In this document: piece by piece, positions 14,259 to 26,616 of the stretch
Position numbering within the stretch: position 1 is the stretch's first letter
Layout of the letters: the number at the start of each line of letters is the position of its first letter
Assembly: GCF_014925385.1 (NCBI RefSeq)
Contig: NZ_JACSDK010000008.1
Span: forward strand, 62,001 to 126,000
Length of the DNA stretch: 64,000 nucleotides
Reading direction: 5' to 3'
Source: Pelagibius marinus
Lineage (GTDB): Bacteria; Pseudomonadota; Alphaproteobacteria; Kiloniellales; Kiloniellaceae
The notes under the pieces: model-generated
Databases searched by the model: none
The model's input: the letters and a program-made list of their open reading frames with translations, nothing else
Told to the model about the DNA's origin: nothing
Position numbers and translations under genes: made by a program

Positions 14259-15398
14259 TCAGGCGGCGAGACGGCTTTCGGCCGCGGCAATCCAGCCGCC
14301 GCCCAAAACCCGGCTGCCTTCATAGCACACCGCGGCCTGACCCGGCGAGATGCCGAATTGGGCTGCATCCAGGACCACCTCGGCCCCGCCCTGCCCTGCC
14401 GGGTAGAGCGTCGCCGCCGCCGGCTCGCTCACCGAACGCAGCTTCACCTCGCAGCGCCGGCCTTCTTCCACCAGCGGCTCTCCGCCCAGCCAGTTCATGT
14501 CGCGCAGGACAACCCGGTCGCGCGCCAGGGCGGCCTTGGGGCCGACGATGACACGGCGCGTCTCCGGCTCCAGGCGCACGACGAAGAGCGGTTCGGCTTC
14601 GCCGCCCACGCCCAGGCCGCGGCGCTGGCCGATGGTGTAGTGGATGATGCCCTCGTGGCGGCCCATGACCCGGCCGTCGACATGCACGATGTCGCCCGGG
14701 TCGGCGGCGCCGGGGCGCAGCTTCTGCACCACCTCGGCGTAGGAGCCCTGGGGCACGAAGCAGATGTCCTGGCTGTCCGGCTTGTCGGCGACGACCAGGC
14801 CGAAGCGCTCGGCCTCTTCACGCACCCTGTCCTTTTCCATGCCGCCCAGCGGGAAGCGCAGGAAGTCGAGCTGGTCGCGCGTCGTCGCGAAAAGAAAGTA
14901 GCTCTGGTCACGCTTGGGGTCGACGGCGCGGTGCAGCTCCGCGCCTTCCGGGCCCATCTGGCGCTGGACATAGTGGCCGGTCGCCAGGCAGTCGGCGCCC
15001 AGGTCGCGGGCCGTGGCCAGCAGGTCGCGGAACTTGACCGTCTGGTTGCAGTTCACGCAGGGGATCGGCGTCTCGCCGCGCAGGTAGCTGTCGGCAAAGT
15101 CGTCGATGACGGACTCGCGAAAGCGGCTCTCGTAGTCCAGCACGTAGTGCGGGATGCCCAGGCGCTCGGCGACCTGGCGGGCGTCGTAGATGTCCTGGCC
15201 GGCGCAGCAGGCGCCCTTCTTGGCCAGCGCCATGCCGTGGTCGTAGAGCTGCAGGGTGATGCCCACCACGTCGAAGCCCTGGGCATGCAGCAGCGCTGCC
15301 GTGACCGAGGAGTCCACCCCGCCCGACATGGCCACCACCACGCGGGTCTGCCCCGCCGGCTTGTCGATCCCCAGAGGGTTTGGGCCCAAAGCGTTCAT
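14259..15398 (-). CDS. mnmA: tRNA-specific 2-thiouridylase MnmA
   Basis: A 379-residue enzyme that makes the 2-thio group on U34 of tRNA-Lys, -Glu and -Gln, taking sulfur relayed from a cysteine desulfurase. Motifs present are the ATP pyrophosphatase loop SGGVDS (residues 25-30), the catalytic cysteine in [11 protein letters not shown] (C114) and the second redox cysteine in [10 protein letters not shown]. Start ATG 15398 gives the normal length; an open frame continues upstream but has no likely start close to a ribosome site. The two desulfurases at 22.9-25.2 kb are plausible sulfur donors. The alpha/beta hydrolase gene lies upstream on the same strand with a 55-base gap. Confidence 0.96.
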
Positions 15399-15453
15399 AG
15401 GGCCGGAATATAGGGCCGGAACGCCCGGGCGCAAGGAATTGCAGGGAAGGCTA

Positions 15454-16875
15454 CTAGGCGGCGCCCAGGATTTCCCGCAGGCGGTCCAGGGGTTGCGGCC
15501 GGCGGCCGAGGTCGAAGGCCACGGTGAAATGGCCCTGATGTCGCAGGAACAAATTCTCAGGCGGCACGCCCCAGCGCCGCGCCAGGGCCAGCCCCCCGGC
15601 AAAGGGCGTCAGGTCGTCGGCCTCGCCCAGCGCCATGACGATCTTCTCCGGCGCCATGGCCGGGGCGCCGCGCGGCTCCATCAGCGGCAGGTAGCGGTCG
15701 ATGTCGGCGACGCTCCAGCCCTTGGCCTGCAGCCGGGCCGGCAGGCCGATGGCCGCGGCCAGGCTGCCCTGGAAGGCGACGTCATGCAGGCTCTCGCTGC
15801 AGGCCACCAGGATCAGCGCGTCGGGGCGCAGTTCGGCCGGCCAGTCCTTGGCCGCCACGGCGGCGAGCTGGCTGGTGAGCGCCCCCAGGCTGACCCCGCC
15901 GAGCGCCACGGGGCCGCCGCCCTGCCCCCCATTCTGTTGCCGCGCCCAGTCGACGTAGACCGGCACCTCGGCGCCCCAGGCGGCGAAGAGCTGTAGGAAG
16001 CCCAGCGGGCCGTGCGCCATGGCCGGCTCGCCGCCGAAGGTGCCGGGCCGGCGCCGCCGGCCGTGCCAGGGCCCCTCCGGGCGGATCACCCGGATGCCCT
16101 TCAGCGCCAGGGTCGGCACGATATCGATGCTGTCCATGGCCTCGCTCCAGTGCTCGCTCTCCACGCAGATGCCGTGCAGGGAGATGAGCGTCGGCGGGTT
16201 CTCGACATCTTCGGGCTCGAAGACCTGGGCCCAGGCGGTGTCGCCGGGCAGACTCGGGGCGGGAAAGCGGATCCAGCACTGCCGACCGAAGGGGCCGGGC
16301 ACCCAGTGCGACCGTTCGACCTGGGGCACCCCATCCAGCTTGATGCAGGTCCCGCCGTCGCCTTGCAGCGCCTCGGGGGCCGGCATTTCCTCCGGATGCG
16401 GCAGCGCCCACTGCAGCTTGTGCACGCGTTTGCGCAGGCAGAGGAAATAGCGCCGCGCCGCCATGAGGTTGTGGGCGGCCTTGCGGCGGGCGCGCTCGGC
16501 CGCCACCAGGACGGCGGCGGGCGGCGCCTCGGCGGCGAAGAAGACATCGCGCCAATGGGCATCGGCCCCGGCGTGAACGCGCTTCAGTTCCTCGGTCCTC
16601 GCCAGGGCGCGCCTGATACGCCAGCCGCAGAAACCGCCGGGGAAGGCCTCCAGGCCCAGGGCGGCGGCGAAGGCCGCCTCGTCGGTACCGCTTTCCAGGG
16701 CCGCCGCCCAGGCGCGCGACAGCGGAAAATACCAGTGGGGCACCAGCTTCACCGCCAGGCGGTCATACCAGGGCCGCATGACCAGGCCTCCCACGGCATC
16801 CCAATTCATCGGGGAGGGCGGCGGGCCCGGCAGGCGGGCGGTTTCGGGAGCGACAGGGGACTCGTTCGACGTCAT
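15454..16875 (-). CDS. Alpha/beta hydrolase family protein with long N-terminal extension
   Basis: A 473-residue protein whose C-terminal 270 residues are an alpha/beta hydrolase. They show the oxyanion strand [14 protein letters not shown], the nucleophile elbow GVSLGA, an acidic residue in GEADDLTPF and a histidine in RHQGHFTV. The first 200 residues are Ala/Arg-rich and helical with many tryptophans, and show no recognisable domain; no signal peptide is evident. Substrate cannot be inferred. It is transcribed toward mnmA. The hydrolase fold is confident and the role is not. Confidence 0.8.
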
Positions 16876-17043
16876 GGCGCGCGAGCATAGCCCCTGCCCG
16901 GCTTCCGCGCAGGCCTTTTACGCACCTTTTTTCGCGCCCTTTTTTGCCATCCGGACTCACGGGGAGTTGAGGCCCGCCGGGCGGCGCGGCCGCTAGACTG
17001 GCGCCTCGTCATTCCGCGCAACAAGTCCCCAGGGAGACATCCG

Positions 17044-17535
17044 ATGATCGCCCGTTTGACGCTCTTGCCCCTGCTGAGCCTCTTCCTGCTGCTCGCGGTC
17101 CCGGCCGTCCCCGCCGAGGCGGACCCCATGGCGCAGCCCGGCTGGAAGGTGATGAAGACACCGCACGGCTACGCCGACCTGGTCGCGCGCCTGGAGAAAG
17201 CCATCGCCGACAACAAGATGGGCCTGGTGGCCCGGGCCAGCGCCACGGTGGGTGCGAAGAAGATGCTGAAGAAGGACATCCCCGGCAACACGGTGATCGG
17301 CGTCTACCGCCCGGACTTCGCCGTGCGCATGCTGGAGGCCAGCGTCGCCGCCGGCATCGAGGCGCCGATCCGCTTCTATGTGACGGAAAACCCCGACGGC
17401 ACCGCCGATCTCAGCTACAAGACGCCGAGCCACGTCTTCGCGCCCTATGGCGACGGCGGCCAGGCGCTGAAGGACCTGGCGGCGGAACTGGACGTGATTT
17501 TCGCGAAAATCGCCGCGGACGCGGTGGGGGGATAG
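17044..17535 (+). CDS. Exported DUF302-domain protein
   Basis: A 163-residue protein with a clear signal peptide (hydrophobic 6-22, cleavage about PAEA at 27) followed by one DUF302 domain. Diagnostic features are the strand YADLVARLEKAIADN, the basic KKMLKKDIPGNTV segment, RPDFAVRMLEASVAAGIEAP and the SYKTPSHVFAPY ending. DUF302 proteins are small periplasmic or cytoplasmic alpha/beta proteins of unknown biochemical role. ATG 17044 is preceded by AGGGAGACATCCG. It is followed after 111 bases by the YqaA-like membrane protein on the same strand. Confidence 0.88.
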   Translation: MIARLTLLPLLSLFLLLAVPAVPAEADPMAQPGWKVMKTPHGYADLVARLEKAIADNKMGLVARASATVGAKKMLKKDIPGNTVIGVYRPDFAVRMLEASVAAGIEAPIRFYVTENPDGTADLSYKTPSHVFAPYGDGGQALKDLAAELDVIFAKIAADAVGG

Positions 17536-17646
17536 CGCGCGCAGTGCCCCGCGCGCCCCGCGCCAAACCTTAATTGATCGACGGCCTCTGCCCGCTGTGG
17601 CCCAATAGGCGCGACCTTTGTTCCGTCGTTGGTGCCATCACTCTCT

Positions 17647-18078
17647 ATGCTTGAGCTCACCGCCTACGCAGGCATCTTCCTGATTTCCTTTCTCGCCGCA
17701 ACGATCCTTCCCGCCCAGTCGGAGGCCGGGCTGGCGGCTTTGCTGCTGTCCGGTGACTATTCGACCGTGCTGCTGATCGCGGTGGCGAGCCTGGGGAACA
17801 CGCTCGGCGCCGTGGTCAACTGGGCGCTGGGCCGCGGCATCGACCGCTTCAGCGACCGCCGCTGGTTCCCGGTGAAGCCGGCGCAGCTGGAGCGCGCTTC
17901 GCGCTGGTACCACCGCTATGGAAGATGGAGCCTGCTGCTCAGCTGGGCGCCCTTGATCGGCGACCCGCTGACCGTGGCCGCCGGCGTACTGCGGGAACCC
18001 TTCGGCCCCTTCCTGCTGCTGGTCGCCCTCGCCAAGACCGGGCGCTACCTGGTGGTCGCGGCCCTGGCGCTGAGCTGA
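17647..18078 (+). CDS. YqaA-family (VTT/DedA-related) membrane protein
   Basis: A 143-residue inner-membrane protein with about four hydrophobic segments, matching the short YqaA branch of the VTT/DedA superfamily. Recognisable features are the reentrant-like region with SEAGLAALLLSGDY, the GNTLGAVVNWALGRG motif, and a second amphipathic GRWSLLLSWAPLIGDPLTVAAGVLR block. The related DedA proteins are implicated in undecaprenyl-phosphate or lipid recycling, but YqaA function is not established. The start is taken at ATG 17647; in-frame GTG 17632 and TTG 17629 are possible, and no strong ribosome site distinguishes them. Its stop lies 16 bases from the ferredoxin remnant, suggesting that this gene and fdx were once convergent neighbours. 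Confidence 0.85.
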   Translation: MLELTAYAGIFLISFLAATILPAQSEAGLAALLLSGDYSTVLLIAVASLGNTLGAVVNWALGRGIDRFSDRRWFPVKPAQLERASRWYHRYGRWSLLLSWAPLIGDPLTVAAGVLREPFGPFLLLVALAKTGRYLVVAALALS

Positions 18079-18094
18079 GTCCGACGCCGGGCCT

Positions 18095-18184
18095 TCAGCC
18101 CAGCATGTTGTTCACTTCCTTGGGCAGGGCGACGACCAGGCCGTCCAGTTCCTCGGTCATGACAATCTGGCAGCCCAGACGCGA
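18095..18184 (-). pseudogene. C-terminal remnant of a [2Fe-2S] ferredoxin gene
   Basis: The last 30 codons and stop of a ferredoxin, with no upstream part. It ends in GLVVALPKEVNNMLG and keeps the fourth cluster cysteine in [11 protein letters not shown]. Compared with the intact fdx gene at 22512-22841 it matches nearly base for base, extending a few bases past the stop, with about ten differences including D to E, E to A and R to K changes; similarity stops abruptly at 18184. Conservative changes suggest it descends from an ortholog or old copy and not from a fresh duplication. It marks one edge of the accessory block. Confidence 0.88.
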
Positions 18185-18327
18185 AGAAAGCCGGGAACCA
18201 TCCGGATCCAAAAAGCATCGCCGCGGCTCCCTTTGCAGGCGATGTGCAATTCTCGAGTACCCGAAGCGACCTGTGGCATCCGTGGGAGCCTCGCAGGGGC
18301 GACACCACAGGCCGGCTTCGGGTTGGA

Positions 18328-18353
18328 GGGCCGGCTGCCTTGGCAGTCGGCCC
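18328..18353 (-). terminator. Strong hairpin downstream of the DUF3426-like lipoprotein gene
   Basis: A 12-bp stem (GGGCCGGCTGCC with GGCAGTCGGCCC, one G-T pair) with a 2-base loop, 31 bases past the stop at 18384. There is no T-run, so it may be a transcript-stabilising end and not a strict intrinsic terminator. Confidence 0.45.
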
Positions 18354-18383
18354 ACCGCCCGCCGGGACAACAACCCGGCGAAC

Positions 18384-19301
18384 CTATTTGCCGGCGCTTG
18401 TCATAGGAATGAAGTCGACATCGATCCGCGCCGTCGTTGGCGGCGCATTTGCAATTTCGGTCCTGAAGCGCAGCCGCTCTCCGGCAGAAAGGTCGGATTT
18501 GCGAGGCACGATCACGGCATTGGTCAATCTGCGTCCCGCCTTGTCCAGAAGTATGGCCCGCATGCTGGGCAGGCGCTTTGCCCGCTCCGTCGTGTTGGTG
18601 ACGATCCCCTGCACGACCAACGTCGTGCCGCGCCGCGTCGGGTCAACCAGAGTAATTTCCAGACCCTCGGTCGAGACATCTTGCCGCGTGACCTGATCGT
18701 CGGCGCAGGCGCGGTATTGCGACCCGGTTTCCGAGTAGCGGTCAACACAGTTCCTGGCGGCATAGCGGCGCTTGTCGATTCCATTCCAGCCCACGCCGAA
18801 CCGGGCAATGCGTTCGCGTCCTCCCCTGTTCAGCTTCAGCGAATAGAGACCAGGCTGAAGTGGCCGGTCGGGAACGACGTGGACATAGCCCGGCCAGCCC
18901 TGGACGGGCTCCGCAGTGGCGGGCACTATGAAGGAATCGAGCGGCGCCACGACCCATTCGCTGCCATCGATCGGTCCGGCAAAACCACGGGAATCAATTT
19001 CGCTCCGCAGCCAGGCAACCCGCCAAATCGTGGCAAGCGAGCGATCGGTCCGCGAGTCACGCGGAATCATTGGGTCGTAGATCACGAACTCGGTAAAGCG
19101 GTTGAGGTCCGCGCGCTGCGGCCAAGACTTGACCTCCCACCGGCTATCGCCATCCAGGCGCATCAATTCATCTTCCGGCGTAATTGCATAGAGACCGGCC
19201 TCGTCGGGCAGGGGATAGGGCGGCATTTTAGGACCGGCACAGGCCGACAGGACACCTGCCAGCGCAATCGCTCCGGCGCTCGCGAAAATTCGTTCTTTCA
19301 T
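18384..19301 (-). CDS. Predicted lipoprotein with DUF3426-like C-terminal domain
   Basis: A 305-residue protein with a lipoprotein signal, LSAC at residues 18-21. Start ATG 19301 has GGGAG upstream; the open frame extends 20 codons further without a ribosome site. The middle (40-200) is rich in Trp, Tyr and Pro and resembles no family I know. The C-terminal 90 residues follow the DUF3426/FxLyD-like beta-sandwich pattern: LVVQGIVTNTTERAKRLPSMRAILLDKAGRRL, then SDLSAGERLRFRTEIANAP and a final RIDVDF strand. In other proteins that domain caps small envelope proteins of unknown role. It lies inside the accessory block beside genes for exported low-complexity proteins, so an envelope role in the same process is plausible but unproven. 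Confidence 0.72.
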   Translation of the reverse strand: MKERIFASAGAIALAGVLSACAGPKMPPYPLPDEAGLYAITPEDELMRLDGDSRWEVKSWPQRADLNRFTEFVIYDPMIPRDSRTDRSLATIWRVAWLRSEIDSRGFAGPIDGSEWVVAPLDSFIVPATAEPVQGWPGYVHVVPDRPLQPGLYSLKLNRGGRERIARFGVGWNGIDKRRYAARNCVDRYSETGSQYRACADDQVTRQDVSTEGLEITLVDPTRRGTTLVVQGIVTNTTERAKRLPSMRAILLDKAGRRLTNAVIVPRKSDLSAGERLRFRTEIANAPPTTARIDVDFIPMTSAGK

Positions 19302-19340
19302 CGGTATTGGCTCCCAATTGTAGTCACTCACGGAGACGCA

Positions 19341-19359
19341 GTCGGGTGCCCCACCCGAC
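19341..19359. promoter_or_regulatory. Perfect inverted repeat upstream of the lipoprotein gene
   Basis: GTCGGGTG and CACCCGAC, separated by three bases, lie 40 bases before the ATG at 19301. This could be an operator or a leader hairpin that limits ribosome access. Confidence 0.45.
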
Positions 19360-19518
19360 ATCGCGAAATCCCCTCTCCATGCAAACTTGATCTGAAGTGT
19401 TCGAACACCGGCGCCCCTTCGCCCAGGCCCTGCTTGCTATCTCGCCCCCGGTACGAAGCTGTGGGCTGCCCCTATTCCCGGCATCGCGGCGGGCACCTCC
19501 CGCGCATTGTCAATTCTT

Positions 19519-20238
19519 CTAGCCGTCGCCGGGCGTCTCACTGATAGCTGGCGAGTCCATCAGGCCGCCCGCCGCGCCGGCGTGCCCCCTGGAGACCGCG
19601 GCATCCTCACCGCCGAAAGCGTCTCGCATGCGGACGTCGGCTCGGCCGCTGGCAGTAGCCTTCGTGACGCCTGGCGTCGCCAGAGCCATGGCCTTGGCGC
19701 GCGACATCGTCTTGACCTTTGTGCCGTCGTCCAGAGTCGTGATGGTCATCGACCGGGACATGCTCCGCCGGCCGAAGGGGGTGGTGATATCCTTGCTAAA
19801 GGACAACGTCCTACTGCTGAGCGCGTCCCCCGATCCACCCGATATCGACGTGTCGGCCGCGGTGTCCGCCGAAACCGCAGTGCCGGCCCCCTCGGCGGAG
19901 GCACCGGCTACGGCTTCCGAGACCGCTTGCGCTTCGACTTCGTCTTCCGTCTCCACAGCGGCTTCCGCACCGGAAGCGGCCGACACGCTGGCGCCATCTG
20001 CCTTCGGAGAGACACCCTCGTGGGGACTGTCGCCTTGTGCAGCGACAGAATGTCCCCTGCCGAGCGCCTTGCCCGGCGCAGTTTCACTCTGCTCTGCGGA
20101 GGTTTGATTCGCCTCTGCAAGCGCTCCGGAATTTCCCCTGTCGCCGTGAGACGCGGCCTGGGCCGGCACCCAACCCAAGCCAAGTGGGACAGCGCTGGCC
20201 GCTGCCAAGAGCAGCATCCGTGGTCCACCTTTCCGCAT
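19519..20238 (-). CDS. Exported Ala/Ser-rich protein, unknown
   Basis: A 239-residue protein with a signal peptide (MRKGGPRMLLLAAASAV..., cleavage about AQA at 28) and a near-perfect ribosome site AGGAGAGG before ATG 20238. The first 100 mature residues are disordered, Ser/Ala/Glu-rich and acidic (EAAVETEDEVEAQAVSEAV). The C-terminal part is more structured and basic, with short alternating strands: SRTLSFSKDITTPF, RSMSRSMTITTLDDGTKVK and MSRAKAMALATPG. There are no cysteines and no known domain. It is divergent from the 400-residue low-complexity protein across a 537-base gap full of inverted repeats, suggesting joint regulation. Composition points to a secreted or periplasmic structural or matrix protein; that is inference only. 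Confidence 0.65.
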   Translation of the reverse strand: MRKGGPRMLLLAAASAVPLGLGWVPAQAASHGDRGNSGALAEANQTSAEQSETAPGKALGRGHSVAAQGDSPHEGVSPKADGASVSAASGAEAAVETEDEVEAQAVSEAVAGASAEGAGTAVSADTAADTSISGGSGDALSSRTLSFSKDITTPFGRRSMSRSMTITTLDDGTKVKTMSRAKAMALATPGVTKATASGRADVRMRDAFGGEDAAVSRGHAGAAGGLMDSPAISETPGDG

Positions 20239-20632
20239 GACCTCTCCTTTCACTGCAACGTCGCCGAGATTCTTCAAGACAGACATTCACGCTCACTTTC
20301 GCGTCTTCTTCATTGCGCAGTAACTATCGTCGCTGCCCGGCCTCAAGACCGTCACTTCAAGTCGATATTCCACCCGACACAAAGTGAGCCCCCCGTGACA
20401 CAGTTTTCTCTCCGGCTGACTCATTTTTCTCCCGCCATCGCCCGATTTCCGCCGTGCTCTTGACTTACCTTCCCTGGCATGGGCGAAACGCGATGACGCC
20501 GCGACGGCGATAAGAGAATGTCGATGGCGCGGCATCAGATTCCGAAGCAAAGAGAGTTTTTCGTTGCAGATACGAACGGTCGAGAAAGCAAAGCACACGA
20601 CAGCTTGCGGCGAAGCACCCGAACTTCATGCG

Positions 20633-20660
20633 CGCTTGATCACGGAAGGAATATCAAGCG
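20633..20660. promoter_or_regulatory. Candidate operator: 8-bp inverted repeat, 12-base spacer
   Basis: CGCTTGAT and ATCAAGCG are exact inverted copies separated by 12 bases, giving a centre-to-centre spacing of two helical turns, as expected for a dimeric regulator. It lies 116 bases before the start at 20776. Confidence 0.5.
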
Positions 20661-20698
20661 GCTCATCGTGTCGATCACCCAGGAGCCTCGCTGGACAT

Positions 20699-20724
20699 GA
20701 GCCGGGAGAATGATCTCGCGGCTC
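20699..20724 (+). promoter_or_regulatory. Leader hairpin upstream of the 400-residue exported protein
   Basis: GAGCCGGGAGA and TCTCGCGGCTC form an 11-base stem with one G-G mismatch and a 4-base loop. It lies 52 bases before the start codon, within the likely 5' leader. Confidence 0.4.
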
Positions 20725-20749
20725 AACCTCATTTTCTCGTGGGAGCCTC

Positions 20750-20761
20750 AGGAAACTTCCT
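20750..20761 (+). promoter_or_regulatory. Small hairpin abutting the ribosome site of the 20776 gene
   Basis: AGGAA and TTCCT flank AC, directly followed by the AAGGAG ribosome site. The upstream AGGAA mimics a ribosome site, and the hairpin could tune translation start. Confidence 0.35.
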
Positions 20762-20775
20762 AAGGAGTTGAGAGC

Positions 20776-21978
20776 ATGAGACACAGGAACATCCGAACCT
20801 ACCTGCTGGGCGCGGTCTCCGCGTTCGCCCTCGGCGCTTTTGCCGCCGGCGGCCCGGCCATGGCCGACACCTTGGACGCTTCGGCGTCCTCCAACGCCAC
20901 GGCGAGCAGCAGCGGTAAGGGCTCCGCCACCGCGTCCAACGAAACCACCGCCAGCATCGGCAAGGACGCTGAGGGCAACATCAACGGCACGACGACTTCC
21001 GACTCGACGGCCAGCGCCACCGGTGACGCCACTGCCGGCGCCAGCGGTGAAGGCTCTGTCGGTGCGACCGGTGACGGCCTCGATGCCGGCGCGGCCGCCG
21101 CGACAGGTTCCGCCGTCAGCTCTTCCGGCGAAACCGGCGCCGCCAGCGCTGCCAGTGCCGCGGCTGCCGGAGTCTCCGTGAACGACGGCCAGGTCTCGGC
21201 CGGCGCAGCCGGGGCCGGCGGCTCCGCCTCCACTGAGGGCTCGGAAGCGATCGCGGGGGCCGACGCCGGCGCCCATGCGTCTCTCTCCGGTTCCGAGCTG
21301 GATGTAGGCGCCGGTGCCGGCGCGAGCGCCGTATCGATCGGTGATGACTCGTCGAGCGCCGCCAGCAACGCCAGCGCCAGTGCCGCCCTCAGCGATAACG
21401 GCACCGTCGCCTCGACCATGTCCGATGTCGGCGCCGAAGCCACCGAGGGTGGCATGGCGAATGCCGACGCCTACGGAACCGCCATCAACGAAGGCGACGG
21501 CTATGGCGTCGCGGCCAACAGCGCCGCTGCCGCTGCCGTCGAAGGAATGGGCAGCGCCCACGGCAGCTCCGGGGCGATGGCCAGCATCGCAATGACCGAG
21601 AGCGGACTGGAAACCAACTCCAGCGCCGGCGCCTCGACTGAGACGACCGGTAATGGCGAAGCCACCGCCGACGCTTCGGCTGCCGGCTACGGCACCATCG
21701 GAGAGGTTCCCGAACCTGAAGAGGACGTTGCCAGCGCGGCGGTCGAGGACAACCCGGAAGCCTGGGGTGCTGTCTCGAGCAACGCGGCCGCTTCTTCCGC
21801 CGTCTTGGGTGGCAGTGTTCCGGTCGCCGAGGCCGCCGCGGGCGGCGACGCCGCCTTCGGCAACGCTGCGGGCGGTTCCGCCAACAGCAATGCCGGTGCC
21901 TCGACGATGACCTATGCCGGCGAGCAGACCGGGGCCGAGTCCGAGGCCGACGGTTCCGCCAGCATCATCATCCAGTAA
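20776..21978 (+). CDS. Exported 400-residue Ala/Ser/Gly-rich low-complexity protein
   Basis: A protein with a classical signal peptide (residues 1-31, ending PAMA) and TAAGGAG before the ATG. The mature chain is dominated by Ala, Ser, Gly and Thr, is strongly acidic (Asp/Glu scattered, almost no Lys/Arg after residue 65), and contains no cysteine. Short irregular motifs with alternating small residues recur, such as SATASNETTAS, ASATGDATAGASG, NDGQVSAGAAG and DNGTVASTMSD; the N-D-G/N-G turns followed by V-x-A suggest stacked short strands, as in beta-solenoid or amyloid-like extracellular proteins. The final SASIIIQ is a hydrophobic tail. No anchor or transmembrane segment is visible after the signal. 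I do not recognise a family; an extracellular matrix, adhesin or fibre role is a hypothesis. Confidence 0.65.
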   Translation: MRHRNIRTYLLGAVSAFALGAFAAGGPAMADTLDASASSNATASSSGKGSATASNETTASIGKDAEGNINGTTTSDSTASATGDATAGASGEGSVGATGDGLDAGAAAATGSAVSSSGETGAASAASAAAAGVSVNDGQVSAGAAGAGGSASTEGSEAIAGADAGAHASLSGSELDVGAGAGASAVSIGDDSSSAASNASASAALSDNGTVASTMSDVGAEATEGGMANADAYGTAINEGDGYGVAANSAAAAAVEGMGSAHGSSGAMASIAMTESGLETNSSAGASTETTGNGEATADASAAGYGTIGEVPEPEEDVASAAVEDNPEAWGAVSSNAAASSAVLGGSVPVAEAAAGGDAAFGNAAGGSANSNAGASTMTYAGEQTGAESEADGSASIIIQ

Positions 21979-22078
21979 CCTTGAGACGCCCATTTCAGGG
22001 CGAGGTGTTGGGGCCGGTGGGAGTTAGCTTCCATCGGCTCCTTCGCCACGCTCTGGCAACCCGCAGAGGACAGGTGCG

Positions 22079-22432
22079 ATGATCCGAGTGACAGCGATCA
22101 CTTCCCTGATAATTCTGGCGGCACTCTGGGCCGCTCCAATGGCGATAGGTGACATGACCGGAAAATCCAACGACGGCTCGAAGCAGAATACCGAAGCGCG
22201 GGCCACGACTTCGGCCTCGGCATCCGCTTCAGTTTCCTCCACGTCGTCGCCCGGCGGGCGAGGCTGTGAGGCAATCGCCAGGTCGCACGCTTCGGCCACG
22301 GCGGACGGCCGGCAGGTTTACGACAGCGACGAGAAGACGCAGCGGAGTTCCGGCGACGGCTGTACTGCGAAGGCACGCTCCAGTGCCACGGCCACGTCTG
22401 GCGGCAAGCAGAGCGATCCGCCGCAGAAGTAA
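22079..22432 (+). CDS. Small exported protein with two Cys-containing 18-residue repeats
   Basis: A 117-residue protein, signal peptide residues 1-24, ATG 22079. The mature part is Ser/Ala/Thr-rich with an ASASASVSS run. It contains two related 18-residue units, residues 62-79 (GCEAIARSHASATADGRQ) and 94-111 (GCTAKARSSATATSGGKQ), identical at 11 positions. Each begins with Gly-Cys, giving exactly two cysteines (C63, C95) that could form one disulfide or a dimer. The alternating A-x-A-R-S-x-A-x-A-T pattern resembles the composition of the 400-residue neighbour upstream, from which it is separated by 100 bases on the same strand. It could be a minor component, nucleator or crosslinker of the same structure; this is speculation. 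No known family. Confidence 0.6.
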   Translation: MIRVTAITSLIILAALWAAPMAIGDMTGKSNDGSKQNTEARATTSASASASVSSTSSPGGRGCEAIARSHASATADGRQVYDSDEKTQRSSGDGCTAKARSSATATSGGKQSDPPQK

Positions 22433-22511
22433 TTCTACGAGCGACCGCGCGAACGGATCTGCGCTTCGCCGACCCGGCATTGCTAGCGATGGATAGCAGA
22501 CGGGCCGGGCC

Positions 22512-22841
22512 TCAGCCCAGCATGTTGTTCACTTCCCTGGGCAGCTCGACGACCAGGCCGTCGAGGTCCTCGGTCATGACGATCTGGCAGCCCAGACGCG
22601 AGGTCGGCTTGAGGCCGAAGGCGAGGTCGAGCATGTCCTCCTCGTCCTCGGAAGGCTCGCCCAGCTTGTCGTACCAGCCCTCGTCGACGATGACGTGGCA
22701 GGTGGCGCAGGCCAGCGAGCCCTCGCAGGCCCCCTCGATGTCCACGTCGTAGCGGTGGGCGATCTCCATCACCGAGAGACCGACGGGGGCATCCACCTCC
22801 TTGCGGGTCCCATCCTTCTCGATGAACGTCAACTTCGGCAT
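22512..22841 (-). CDS. fdx: Adrenodoxin-type [2Fe-2S] ferredoxin
   Basis: A 109-residue ferredoxin of the vertebrate/ISC type, with cluster cysteines C39, C45, C48 and C85 in the order [10 protein letters not shown] then RLGC. The family ISC ferredoxins donate electrons to cysteine desulfurase/scaffold reactions in Fe-S cluster assembly. TAGGAG precedes ATG 22841. It follows iscS on the same strand after 38 bases, making it the last gene of the cysE-iscR-desulfurase-iscS-fdx run. Its 3' end borders the accessory block, and a diverged copy of its last 30 codons lies at 18095-18184 on the far side of that block. Confidence 0.95.
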
Positions 22842-22879
22842 AAAGTTCTGCTCCTAACTCGTCGTCTGCTCGGCCCCGG

Positions 22880-24094
22880 CTATTCCGCAGCCGCGCTGCC
22901 CTCTTCGCGCAGCCGCTTGACCGCCGTCCCCAGTTCCTCCACCGCCCGGTCGATCTCCGCCTCCGTATTGAAGCGGCCGATGCCGATGCGGATCGACCCG
23001 CGCGCCCGGTCTTCCGGCAGGCCCAGGGCCTGCAGCACGTAGGACGGCTCCACCGCCGTCGAGGTGCAGGCCGAGCCGGAGGAAACGGCCAGGCCCGCCA
23101 GCGCCTTGATCAGGGCCTCGGCGTCCACCCCCTCGAAGGCGAGGTTGAGGTTGCCGGGGATCCGCTGCGTGGCGTGGCCGTTCAGCGCGACCCCGGGAAG
23201 GCGGCCTGTAATGCCCTCCAGGAGGCGGGTCTTCAAGGCCGAAATGCGCGCCTCTTCCTCGGCCATCTCCTGGCCGGCAATCTCGGCGGCCTGGCCGAGG
23301 CCGACGCAGAGCGGCGTCGGCAGGGTGCCGGAGCGCAGGCCCCGCTCCTGCCCGCCGCCGTCGATCATGGGCTCCAGGCGCACCCGCGGCCGGCGTCGCA
23401 CGTAGAGCGCGCCAATGCCCTTGGGGCCGTAGAACTTGTGGCCGGAGATGCTCAGCAGGTCGATGCCCAGGGCCGCCACGTCGAGGGGGATCTTGCCCAC
23501 CGCCTGGGCGGCGTCGCAGTGGAAGTAGGCACCCTTGGCGTGGCAGATTTCGGCAATCTCGGCCAGCGGCTGGATGACGCCGATCTCGTTGTTCACCGCC
23601 ATGATGGAGACCACGGAGGTCTCCTCGCTCACCGTCTCGGCCAGCCGGTCCAGGTCGACTAGGCCGTCGGGGCGCACCGGCAGGAAATCGACGCGGTGAC
23701 CCTCGCGCTCCAGGTGGCGCACGCTCTCAATCACGCACTTGTGCTCGGTCGGCAGGGTGACGACATGGGGGCGCCTGTCGCGGTGGAAGCGCGCGGCACC
23801 CTTGATGGCCAGGTTGTTGGACTCCGTCGCCCCGGAGGTGAAGATCACCTCGCGCGGCGTGGCGCCGATCAGGGCGGCGAGCTGGGCGCGCGCCTTCTCC
23901 ACCGCCTCCTCGGCGTCCCAGCCGAAGGCGTGGTGGGTCGAGTGGGGGTTGCCGAAGCGCTCGGTGAAGAAAGGCAGCATGGCCTCGACCACCCGCGGGT
24001 CGGTCGGCGTGGTCGCCTGGTTGTCCAGATAGATGCCCGGCGGCCGCCGGTTGGGCTTTTTGGGATTCGGCTTGCCGCTGTGTTTCTCCGTCAT
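22880..24094 (-). CDS. iscS: Cysteine desulfurase IscS-like
   Basis: A 404-residue PLP enzyme that removes sulfur from cysteine for Fe-S clusters and tRNA thiolation. The PLP lysine is in SISGHK (K220), the PLP-contacting histidine/aspartate in HCDAAQAVGK, and the catalytic loop cysteine in SSGSACTS (C343), which is the long-loop group I signature. It has a 20-residue Lys/Pro-rich N-terminal extension before YLDNQATTP. It sits 10 bases after the stop of a second desulfurase gene and is followed by fdx. No scaffold (iscU/sufB) gene is visible in the window. Confidence 0.94.
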   Translation of the reverse strand: MTEKHSGKPNPKKPNRRPPGIYLDNQATTPTDPRVVEAMLPFFTERFGNPHSTHHAFGWDAEEAVEKARAQLAALIGATPREVIFTSGATESNNLAIKGAARFHRDRRPHVVTLPTEHKCVIESVRHLEREGHRVDFLPVRPDGLVDLDRLAETVSEETSVVSIMAVNNEIGVIQPLAEIAEICHAKGAYFHCDAAQAVGKIPLDVAALGIDLLSISGHKFYGPKGIGALYVRRRPRVRLEPMIDGGGQERGLRSGTLPTPLCVGLGQAAEIAGQEMAEEEARISALKTRLLEGITGRLPGVALNGHATQRIPGNLNLAFEGVDAEALIKALAGLAVSSGSACTSTAVEPSYVLQALGLPEDRARGSIRIGIGRFNTEAEIDRAVEELGTAVKRLREEGSAAAE

Positions 24095-24104
24095 GCCCGC
24101 GCCC

Positions 24105-25205
24105 TCACGCCGCCTTGCTGCGGCGGTAGAGATCGCCCCAGGCGGCGATCAGCCGCTCGACGTCTTCGGGCACGCTGGCCCAGCCGAGCGACACGCGGAT
24201 CGCCGAGCCGGCCTCGTCCGGGCTCGCGCCCATGGCGGTCAGCACATGGGAGGGCTGGACCTTGCCGGAGGAGCAGGCGGCGCCGGAGCTGACCGCCACC
24301 CCGGCCAGGTCGAGGGCCATGAGCTGGGTCTCCGCGGCCAGGCCGGCGACGGCGACGCAGGAGGTGTTGGGCAGGCGCGGCACGGCGCCGCCGAACACCT
24401 TAAGACCGGGTGCCAAGCTTTTGATTTCCCGTTCGAAATGGTCGCGCAGCTCACCCAATTTCTGAAGTTTCGGCAATTCTTCAAGTGCGATCTCAGCCGC
24501 GCGCCCGAAACCGACGATTCCCGCCAGGTTCTCGGTCCCGGCGCGGCGCCGGCGCTCCTGCCCGCCGCCGCGCTGCAGGGCGCTCAGCGGCAGCTCCGGG
24601 GAGGCCAGCAAGGCGCCCACGCCCGGCGGTCCGCCGAGCTTGTGGGCCGAGAGGGTCATGAGGTCGACGCCGAGGTCGATCATGCGGAAGGGAATCTTGC
24701 CGGCGGCCTGTACGGCATCGCAGTGGACCCAGGCGCCGGCGGCGTGGGCGAGCGAGACCACGGCCTCGACGGGCTGGATCACGCCGGTCTCGTTGTTGGC
24801 CAGCATGACCGAAACCAGGCTGCCCTCGGGCACGGTCTCCAGCGCCGCGGAAAGGGCGTCCAGGTCGATCTCGCCATCGGCGCTCAGGCCGATGAGCATG
24901 ATCTCCGGCACCGCCTGCAGCACCGAGTCATGCTCGCCCGCGGAGGCCAGAATGCGCTGTGCCGGCAGGCCGCGCAGGGCCAGGTTGTTGGCCTCGGTGC
25001 CGCCGGAGGTGAAGATCACCCAGGCCGGATCGACGCCGGCCAGGGCCGCGACCTTGGCCCGCGCCTCCTCCACCAGGCGTCGGGCGCGGCGGCCCGGCCC
25101 ATGCACCGAGGAGGCGTTGCCGGGCTCGGCCAGCGCCGCGGCCATGGCGTCGAGCGCTTCAGGCCGGATCGGCGCCGTGGCGTTGTAGTCGAGGTAGGCG
25201 GTCAT
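24105..25205 (-). CDS. Cysteine desulfurase, NifS/IscS-like second copy
   Basis: A 366-residue aminotransferase-fold enzyme starting YLDYNATAP at ATG 25205; an overlapping longer open frame upstream is the out-of-frame iscR gene. The PLP lysine is in TLSAHK (K189) and the catalytic cysteine is in SSGAACSSG (C311), again group I. It differs substantially from its downstream partner, so the pair is not a recent duplication. It lies 43 bases after iscR. Two adjacent desulfurases after iscR are a common arrangement in alphaproteobacteria; whether they serve different acceptors is unknown. Confidence 0.92.
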   Translation of the reverse strand: MTAYLDYNATAPIRPEALDAMAAALAEPGNASSVHGPGRRARRLVEEARAKVAALAGVDPAWVIFTSGGTEANNLALRGLPAQRILASAGEHDSVLQAVPEIMLIGLSADGEIDLDALSAALETVPEGSLVSVMLANNETGVIQPVEAVVSLAHAAGAWVHCDAVQAAGKIPFRMIDLGVDLMTLSAHKLGGPPGVGALLASPELPLSALQRGGGQERRRRAGTENLAGIVGFGRAAEIALEELPKLQKLGELRDHFEREIKSLAPGLKVFGGAVPRLPNTSCVAVAGLAAETQLMALDLAGVAVSSGAACSSGKVQPSHVLTAMGASPDEAGSAIRVSLGWASVPEDVERLIAAWGDLYRRSKAA

Positions 25206-25248
25206 GCTGGTTCGCGGCTGGCTCGCGTGGAGGCTTGCGGCCGCCGGC

Positions 25249-25779
25249 CTAGCCGGCGGCGCGGCAGGGGTTGCGGTCGTCGGCGGGGTCTTGGTCGGCC
25301 GAGGCGTCGCTGCCGGACACCTGCACCGCGGCGCGAGGCGCGCAGGAGCCGACGCCGCTGGTCCCCAGGATCCGACGCGAGATGACATCGTCCACGGTGA
25401 CGGAGCTGAGGTAGAGGTAGATCTGGTTGCCGAGCTCTTCCCAGAGGTCATGGGTCTGGCAGCGGCTCTGGTTGCCGCGGCAACCCAGCGGCTGGCCGGG
25501 CATGCAGCGGGTGGCGCGGATCGGCTCGTCCACCGCCAGGATGATGTCGGAGATCCGGGTTTCCTCGGGCGTGTGGGCCAGCAGGTAGCCGCCGCCGGGG
25601 CCGCGCACGGAACGCACCAGCCCGCCGCGCCGCAGTTTGGCGAAGAGCTGCTCAAGGTAGGAGAGAGAAATCTCCTGCCGCTCGGCGATGTCGGCCAGGG
25701 CCACGGGACGGCCCTCGGCATGGCTGGCGAGGTCGCAGAGCGCCATCACGGCGTAGCGGCCTTTGGTGCTCAACTTCAC
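25249..25779 (-). CDS. iscR: Rrf2-family Fe-S regulator IscR
   Basis: A 176-residue transcription regulator with an N-terminal winged helix (KLSTKGRYAVMALCDLA, EISLSYLEQLFAKLRRGGLV, VRGPGGGY) and three cluster cysteines C92, C100 and C107 with H110 nearby, spaced slightly wider than in E. coli. The family senses Fe-S status through a [2Fe-2S] cluster and controls cluster-assembly genes. It is in the same run as cysE (48 bases upstream) and the two desulfurases, so it probably controls its own operon. The last 40 residues are a disordered Ser/Asp/Ala tail with extra cysteines. Confidence 0.93.
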   Translation of the reverse strand: MKLSTKGRYAVMALCDLASHAEGRPVALADIAERQEISLSYLEQLFAKLRRGGLVRSVRGPGGGYLLAHTPEETRISDIILAVDEPIRATRCMPGQPLGCRGNQSRCQTHDLWEELGNQIYLYLSSVTVDDVISRRILGTSGVGSCAPRAAVQVSGSDASADQDPADDRNPCRAAG

Positions 25780-25827
25780 CCTTTCTCTCCCTTCTGTGGA
25801 CCCGGTGGCGTCAGCACTTGGGCGGCC

Positions 25828-26616
25828 TCAGCACTTGCCTTCCGGCTGCTTCGCCTCGCCCACACGGCTCAACTCACGCTCGTCGCCTTCAACGGGAAGG
25901 CCGTTGCCGGAGGTTTCCTTGCCGGAGCCGGCCTCGAGTTCGTTCACGCGGGCGCGCAGGCTCTGCACCTCGTCCAGCAGGCCGTCCAGCGCCCGGGCGA
26001 CCGGGTCCGGAATATTGCCGGTCGGCGTGCCGTAAGCGACGAAGGGGGCTTTTTCGTTGTCCGGGGTCTTGCTGGTCTGAACCGCGCGGCCGGGAATGCC
26101 GACGATGGTGGCGCCCTCCGGCACCTCCTTGGTCACCACCGCGTTGGCGCCGATGCGCGCGCAGCGGCCGACCGTGAAGGGGCCCAGGATCTGGGCGCCG
26201 GAGCCGACGATGACGTTGTCGAGCAGGGTCGGGTGGCGCTTCACGTTGCGCTGGCTGTCGCTGTCGACGCTGGGCGAGGTCCCGCCCAGGGTCACCCCCT
26301 GGTAGAGGGTCACGTCGTCGCCGATCTCGGCGGTCTCGCCGATCACCACGCCCATGCCGTGATCGATGAAAAAACGCTCGCCGATGGTCGCGCCGGGATG
26401 GATTTCGATGCCGGTCAGGACCCGCCCGAGGGCCGATATCCAGCGGCCCAGCAGGTACCAGCGCCGCCGCCAGCAGGCATTGGCCAGGCGATAGAGCATG
26501 ATAGCCTGGAAACCGGGGTAACAAAGCACCACCTCTAGGCGGGAGCGCGCCGCGGGGTCGCGCTGCATGGTGGCATCGATTTCGGCCCGTAGAGACTTGA
26601 ACATCGCTTCGTCCAT
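25828..26616 (-). CDS. cysE: Serine O-acetyltransferase CysE
   Basis: A 262-residue enzyme making O-acetylserine, the acceptor for sulfide in cysteine synthesis. The left-handed beta-helix hexapeptide region shows [22 protein letters not shown] with the catalytic His/Asp region, [21 protein letters not shown] and [11 protein letters not shown]. The C-terminus carries a 60-residue extension after the helix. ATG 26616 is used; a second ATG four codons later is possible. It is the first gene of a run cysE-iscR-desulfurase-iscS-fdx, which links cysteine supply with its use as sulfur donor. A promoter is visible 87 bases upstream. Confidence 0.95.

Follow-up and report, generated by a model that had tools for sequence, protein, structure and literature searches.

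The cross-beta silk of the lacewing egg stalk is formed by proteins (MalXB1/2, ChryC1-3) described as rich in Ser, Gly and Ala, with a 16-residue period (PMC5485732). In Caulobacter, HfaA and HfaB of the holdfast anchor are reported to resemble CsgA and CsgG, respectively (PMC6707917), and CdzC is reported to make insoluble surface aggregates (PMC5380434). In this study, we analysed a 64,000-nucleotide stretch of Pelagibius marinus DNA (contig NZ_JACSDK010000008.1, positions 62,001 to 126,000; hereafter the window) and found an islet of four genes, encoding a lipoprotein and three low-complexity proteins with apparent export signals (proteins 1, 2 and 3). The islet is real, is conserved in two genomes, and is in no family of the libraries searched. 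It may represent a fibre or matrix system of the cell surface that is as yet undescribed.

Like the lacewing silk, proteins 1-3 have a high Ser/Gly/Ala content, and the short regular period of the silk has a weakly supported counterpart of ~17 residues in protein 2. The silk components, as described, differ in being animal proteins with a markedly positive net charge in the core, whereas protein 2 is acidic (PMC5485732). Cross-beta silk would thus be the nearest way of working, as a resemblance without membership or sequence homology.

The csg genes form two divergent operons with a lipoprotein, like the layout of the islet, and curli and HfaABD share with it exported small subunits. The curlin repeat has the form S-x5-Q-x-G-x2-N, and the RTX repeat the form GGxGxD. 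Neither motif occurred in the five mature proteins scanned, and proteins 1-3 gave no Curlin Pfam match at E<=1. The CsgG family (PF03783) was found in 4/9 genomes searched and in 4/14 controls, and not in the genome holding the window (G000, 98% complete) or in the other carrier, the Kiloniellaceae metagenome-assembled genome of isolate Dino_bin46 (G005, 91% complete). Since CsgG was found in neither carrier assembly, curli and Hfa do not fit. Across the genus, CsgG-family matches occurred in G001, G002 and G003, which have no islet, and in none of G000, G005 and G004, a comparison of too few genomes to establish mutual exclusion.

The islet and its two carriers

The four genes occupy a 4.3-kb segment at the 3' end of the 2Fe-2S ferredoxin gene (fdx). 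In the closest relative by this region (G004, 93%), a VTT-domain gene lies directly next to fdx with nothing between, and the site is therefore empty. The features of the window are as follows.

18090..18184, unstranded: left direct repeat, a detached fdx 3' end (29 codons plus stop) directly adjoining the VTT-domain gene, at the position of the intact fdx end in G004
18185..22506, unstranded: inserted islet of four genes, with lower GC content at third codon positions (GC3); site empty in G004
18260..18322, minus strand: conserved 63-nt hairpin whose loop holds GAGGCTCCCACG; 18 pairs, one two-sided change between the two genomes
18384..19361, minus strand: gene of the lipoprotein, which probably starts at Met21 (19301) and has an FxLYD/DUF3426-like domain at its C-terminus
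19519..20286, minus strand: gene of low-complexity protein 1, with predicted export; 255 aa from the first ATG, 239 aa from Met17 at 20238
20738..20749, plus strand: CGTGGGAGCCTC, the part of the protein 2 leader to which the hairpin loop is complementary; lies within a 16-bp block identical in G005
20776..21978, plus strand: gene of low-complexity protein 2 (400 aa), acidic and with predicted export; a candidate for the main structural subunit
22079..22432, plus strand: gene of low-complexity protein 3 (117 aa), with predicted export and a Cys in each of two repeats
22507..22601, unstranded: right direct repeat, formed by the 3' end of fdx itself, which is intact (22512-22841, minus strand)

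The 95-bp direct repeats bracketing the islet are 92% identical, with a spacing of 4417. An integrative island at a gene 3' end is marked by direct repeats with the target gene kept intact and by an empty site in a relative, and the islet shows both. Inspection of the stretch around fdx in seven other same-genus genomes revealed no islet, and G004 alone among them has the VTT gene near fdx. The GC3 of the four islet genes was 0.70-0.80, compared to 0.88-0.94 in five flanking genes. Based on the direct repeats, the empty site in G004 and the GC3 below that of the neighbours, the islet was apparently acquired horizontally. Both fdx repeats are closer to G004 and G005 (7-9 differences) than to the other five genomes (13-18).

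A small island between imperfect direct repeats, with no recombinase of its own, has a tested precedent in the microcin H47 genomic island. That island is described as 13 kb long with microcin cargo in E. coli, and its mobility was tested, whereas that of the islet is putative (PMC3191183, PMC5426353). No relatives were found in a plasmid search with protein 1, protein 2 and the lipoprotein (weak for proteins 1 and 2 owing to low-complexity filtering) or in a phage search with the lipoprotein only. Among viral contigs, relatives of protein 1 and protein 3 were present in 0 of 192 and 61 candidate stretches.

The three low-complexity genes occur together in both carriers and in no other genome searched, which agrees with the grouping proposed in the original prediction; that prediction had not noticed the islet, the fdx-end repeats beside it or the conserved hairpin. 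G005 is the one other same-genus genome with all four genes, at a different locus and split over two contigs; the three low-complexity genes were found in none of six other same-genus genomes. Specifically, protein 1 was matched in 2/61 genomes of the order and in 1/385 of a class sample (G000 only), with at least one locus, in G005, in a scan of genome contigs; protein 3 was matched in 2/58 genomes and in 1/385 of the class sample. Protein 2 had matches in 3/98 genomes, leaving G000 and G005 after we dropped the match in G094 (E 4e-4), which runs antisense to a 642-aa gene resembling a chemotaxis receptor by eye. The G005 orthologs are 57% (lipoprotein), 38% (protein 1), 66% over 131 aa (protein 2) and 51% (protein 3) identical to those of the window. 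With a ratio of nonsynonymous to synonymous differences (pN/pS) of 0.45-0.65, these orthologs indicate that the genes did not arise by chance. The proportion of synonymous differences (pS) between the two islets was 0.50-0.66, compared to 0.23, 0.41 and 0.44 in three neighbour genes, which is consistent with, and no proof of, separate acquisition in the two genomes.

The G005 locus, beside an hpf-like gene (by eye), keeps the divergent arrangement of the window for the lipoprotein, protein 1 and residues 1-131 of protein 2. On contig C99 (L025 8150-8260), the protein 2 frame breaks after ~131 residues into an ABC-transporter-like fragment (by eye), which is either an assembly chimera or a real deletion. 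Protein 3 lies at the end of another contig (C32), with the 14-bp block ATCCAGTAACCTTG ahead of it; in the window, this block extends across the stop codon of protein 2. The block occurs twice ahead of G005 protein 3, and at the end of C32 (L054 8007-8196) the stop-codon region of protein 2 is duplicated in tandem. Because ATCCAGTAACCTTG precedes protein 3 at the contig end, the order of proteins 2 and 3 is apparently kept in G005, with an unproven assembly break within protein 2.

Beyond fdx, the window (22880-25779) carries a tandem pair of distinct cysteine-desulfurase-like genes (the second identified by eye) and an Rrf2 regulator; both desulfurase-like genes were matched in all seven same-genus loci compared.

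Three low-complexity proteins and a lipoprotein

The original prediction described three Ala/Ser/Gly/Thr-rich proteins of 239, 400 and 117 residues, each with a signal peptide, two encoded in tandem and one divergently beside a lipoprotein gene. The genes lie where it placed them, its 239-residue protein being protein 1 read from Met17, a start with a good Shine-Dalgarno sequence that agrees with the ortholog start (by eye). Proteins 2 and 3 are encoded on the plus strand, and protein 1 and the lipoprotein on the minus strand of the same islet. Signal peptides are apparent on all three proteins; like the lipobox (LSAC) of the lipoprotein, they were assigned by eye. Ala, Gly, Ser and Thr make up 51-66% of proteins 1-3, with 66% in protein 2. 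As described before, protein 2 is acidic and poor in basic residues, with 46 Asp/Glu, two His, no Cys and five Lys/Arg in total, 0 beyond residue 65. Among 180 open reading frames (ORFs) of >=100 aa in the window, it ranks first both for Ala+Gly+Ser+Thr and for the lowest Lys+Arg. The paired Cys repeats reported for protein 3 were also recovered, as two Cys, one in each of two similar short repeats. In protein 1, a C-terminal 85-residue region is conserved (51% identity with G005).

No family had been recognised for these proteins, and profile searches bore this out: none of proteins 1-3 gave a match above cut-off in Pfam (E<=1), NCBIfam (E<=1) or PHROGs (E<=0.1), so homology to an unrelated known family was not seen for them. 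A ZirU (NCBIfam) hit of protein 1 was dropped (13.3 bits against a cut-off of 100). Profile comparison revealed no homology among proteins 1, 2 and 3, and searching solved structures with the protein 2 sequence returned a single chance-level row (E 0.98).

We found that Ala favours even spacings in the low-complexity proteins. The 24 Ala pairs of protein 3 with a distance of <=8 are evenly spaced (by an even number of residues) without exception. The even-over-odd excess was reached by 0/5000 shuffles for protein 2, protein 3 and G005 protein 3, by 17/5000 for the G005 protein 2 part, by 61/5000 for protein 1 and by 71/5000 for G005 protein 1. The lipoprotein, used as a control, showed no alternation (1099/5000 shuffles as high). 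Three further residue classes were tested, and Ala+Gly and hydrophobics+Ala alternate too in most of the low-complexity proteins. Such a two-residue alternation would be expected of extended strands with one small-residue face. Furthermore, the turn residues of protein 2 peak at a period of 17.25-17.5 residues. Against plain shuffles, Asp/Asn/Glu fell just under and Asp/Asn/Glu/Gly just over the 95% level, with three other classes under it; parity-keeping shuffles were as high at ~17.25 in 53/1000 (Asp/Asn/Glu) and 26/1000 (Asp/Asn/Glu/Gly) cases.

The lipoprotein carries an FxLYD domain at residues 247-316 (35.8 bits, cut-off 23), its DUF3426 match stays below the cut-off, and its sequence gave no match among solved structures. 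A model built from three sequences had a predicted local distance difference test score (pLDDT) of 73 and a predicted template modelling score of 0.54. In the fold search, it matched the DUF1425 entry 3o0l over 94 columns (root-mean-square deviation 3.8, probability 1.00), a resemblance that we take as a hint, the matching part of the model not being specified. Most of the best rows were transglutaminase 2, discounted for deviations of 16-18 over about 270-310 columns. Lipoprotein matches occurred in 39/98 genomes; outside G000 and G005, the matches listed start near residue 206, except in G036, whose distant homolog covers residues 30-227 (34% identity). G036 has no match for proteins 1-3 and no such genes near this homolog. 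The view that the genes might be scattered independently thus fails for the three low-complexity genes and retains some ground for the lipoprotein. The G036 homolog (L026 5945-7666) directly follows a sigma-factor-like gene (by eye), without low-complexity neighbours.

A conserved hairpin and the leader of protein 2

The hairpin lies about 61 nt past the lipoprotein stop codon in the window and 59 in G005, with minimum free energies of -38.6 and -44.8, respectively. Its loop holds GCGAGGCTCCCACGG in both genomes, and the 12-nt complement CGTGGGAGCCTC is found in the protein 2 leader of both. The 16-bp block around CGTGGGAGCCTC is the longest identity between the two protein 2 upstream regions. 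A complementarity of >=12 between the two regions arose in 9/2000 (window) and 38/2000 (G005) Markov shuffles. The exact 12-mer has three copies in the G000 genome and two in G005, four of these five being the islet sites; read backward as a control, it has 0 copies in G000 and G005 and <=3 in each of the other six genomes. Further copies, in a sulfotransferase-like gene (by eye) on G000 contig C10 and on G001 contig C100, were judged to be chance. Among 58 genomes, searched under stricter filters, a model of the hairpin strongly matched the two islets it was built from and no others (E 1.3e-14 and 2.5e-15); three further matches had E 0.27-0.55.

If the hairpin is transcribed, its loop could pair with the protein 2 mRNA leader and couple the two operons. 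A comparable arrangement is described for icaR of Staphylococcus aureus, a biofilm repressor whose translation is controlled by base-pairing between a motif in the 3' untranslated region and the Shine-Dalgarno region; there the pairing takes place inside one mRNA, whereas in the islet it would join two divergent transcripts and is a prediction from sequence (PMC3868564). The two CGTGGGAGCCTC copies could instead be DNA sites, such as an operator or recombination sites, and their shared orientation flanking the lipoprotein and protein 1 in both genomes would suit this. We consider that alternative doubtful, because one copy is part of the loop in a hairpin, strong and conserved, past a gene end, with a two-sided stem change, and the other about 12 nt upstream of a Shine-Dalgarno sequence.

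Rfam gave no match at gathering level within 15000-26000; around the two hairpins, the rows returned, one and five, were at chance level. Scans for sigma-70 promoters found none, terminator scans gave no excess over shuffles, and a search for the EcfG-type pattern gave nothing convincing.

Readings of the islet

Taken as a whole, these data are best explained by an acquired matrix system of cross-beta type, anchored to the surface, whose divergent operons communicate through RNA, a reading that we hold tentatively, at somewhat less than an even chance. The islet would form two divergent operons, protein 1 then lipoprotein on the minus strand and protein 2 then protein 3 on the plus strand. Proteins 1-3 would be Sec-exported chains and, since small residues alternate at every second position, would form extended beta-strands, which could stack into a silk- or amyloid-like cross-beta matrix. 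The main subunit would be protein 2, with protein 3 as a minor, Cys-bearing one, protein 1 as an accessory protein or nucleator and the lipoprotein as the putative attachment to the outer membrane. The narrower proposal of a bacterial silk, namely a mobile islet for a surface-anchored cross-beta fibre of three exported proteins with no relation to any family searched, with operons balanced by pairing between hairpin loop and leader, appears unlikely to hold in full.

Several points weigh against the matrix reading. AlphaFold2 gave no usable model of protein 2 from two sequences (mean pLDDT 37), the model having three longer strands at 33-82 and two three-residue strands at 134-141. The alternation of Ser/Thr is weak (133/5000 shuffles as high for protein 2, 731/5000 for protein 3), and the marginal 17-residue turn period is suggestive only. 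No outer-membrane exporter was recognised in the islet, and the proteins may therefore stay in the periplasm. The extracellular structural role (fibre, amyloid-like or surface layer) in the original prediction is backed in part by the alternation statistics, which indicate beta-strand structural proteins, and left short by the unusable model and by the search for a CsgG-type exporter, which found none in either carrier. As for the RNA pairing, the loop-leader duplex is the fourth strongest of 79 window leaders and not exceptional in this GC-rich DNA; shuffled leaders paired as strongly in 30/1000 (window) and 3/1000 (G005) cases; finding two 12-mer matches in the window when one mismatch is tolerated is unremarkable (30/100 shuffles); and the column-shuffle control of the hairpin (254/500) is uninformative with two sequences. 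As for the transfer, no integrase was recognised (no Pfam match in proteins 1-3, none at E<=0.01 in eight further ORFs from the region of the islet), and each fdx repeat differs from G004 at 7/90 sites, so that either copy may have arrived with the islet. With two known loci only, the evidence from conservation is thin.

Disordered protectants resembling hydrophilins would be flexible, polar hydration or osmotic buffers, periplasmic or secreted, with no ordered assembly. The glycine content of the mature proteins (10-17%), the grand average of hydropathy (GRAVY) of mature protein 3 (-1.08) and the missing confident structure of protein 2 all suit such a role. Hydrophilins have a strongly hydrophilic GRAVY range, and the values of mature proteins 1 (-0.37) and 2 (-0.04) fall far off it; a two-residue alternation is also unexpected in a disordered buffer. 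This explanation therefore seems to us improbable, though not negligible.

A similarly low chance applies to selfish or neutral genes, where the islet would hitch-hike without benefit and its repetitive proteins would drift. Its patchy distribution, its two copies at different loci and a ratio of nonsynonymous to synonymous differences between the islets of 0.45-0.65, looser than in fdx (0.17), speak for neutrality, but the four genes, their signal peptides (by eye), the hairpin and the leader block have been retained while the remaining divergent intergenic similarity was largely lost.

A Cdz-like surface aggregate acting as a contact-dependent, bacteriocin-like agent, for which the lipoprotein would provide immunity or display, is very unlikely: an islet of this small size, encoding two or three small exported proteins rich in Gly/Ala, recalls the surface aggregates of CdzC in the alphaproteobacterium Caulobacter (PMC5380434), but mature proteins 1-3, like G005 protein 3, have no GxxxGxxxG glycine zipper (G005 protein 1 has one), carry Sec signal peptides (by eye) rather than type I signals, and lie in an islet where a search covering the islet only recognised no type I secretion gene or ABC exporter.

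If the proteins assemble as the matrix reading proposes, the islet would be a compact bacterial matrix system, complete in itself and built from silk-like sequences, of which the main one nearly lacks basic residues. Such a system would be invisible to ordinary family searches and may be mobile as a single 4.3-kb unit. In addition, it would provide a simple case of RNA pairing that links two divergent structural operons.

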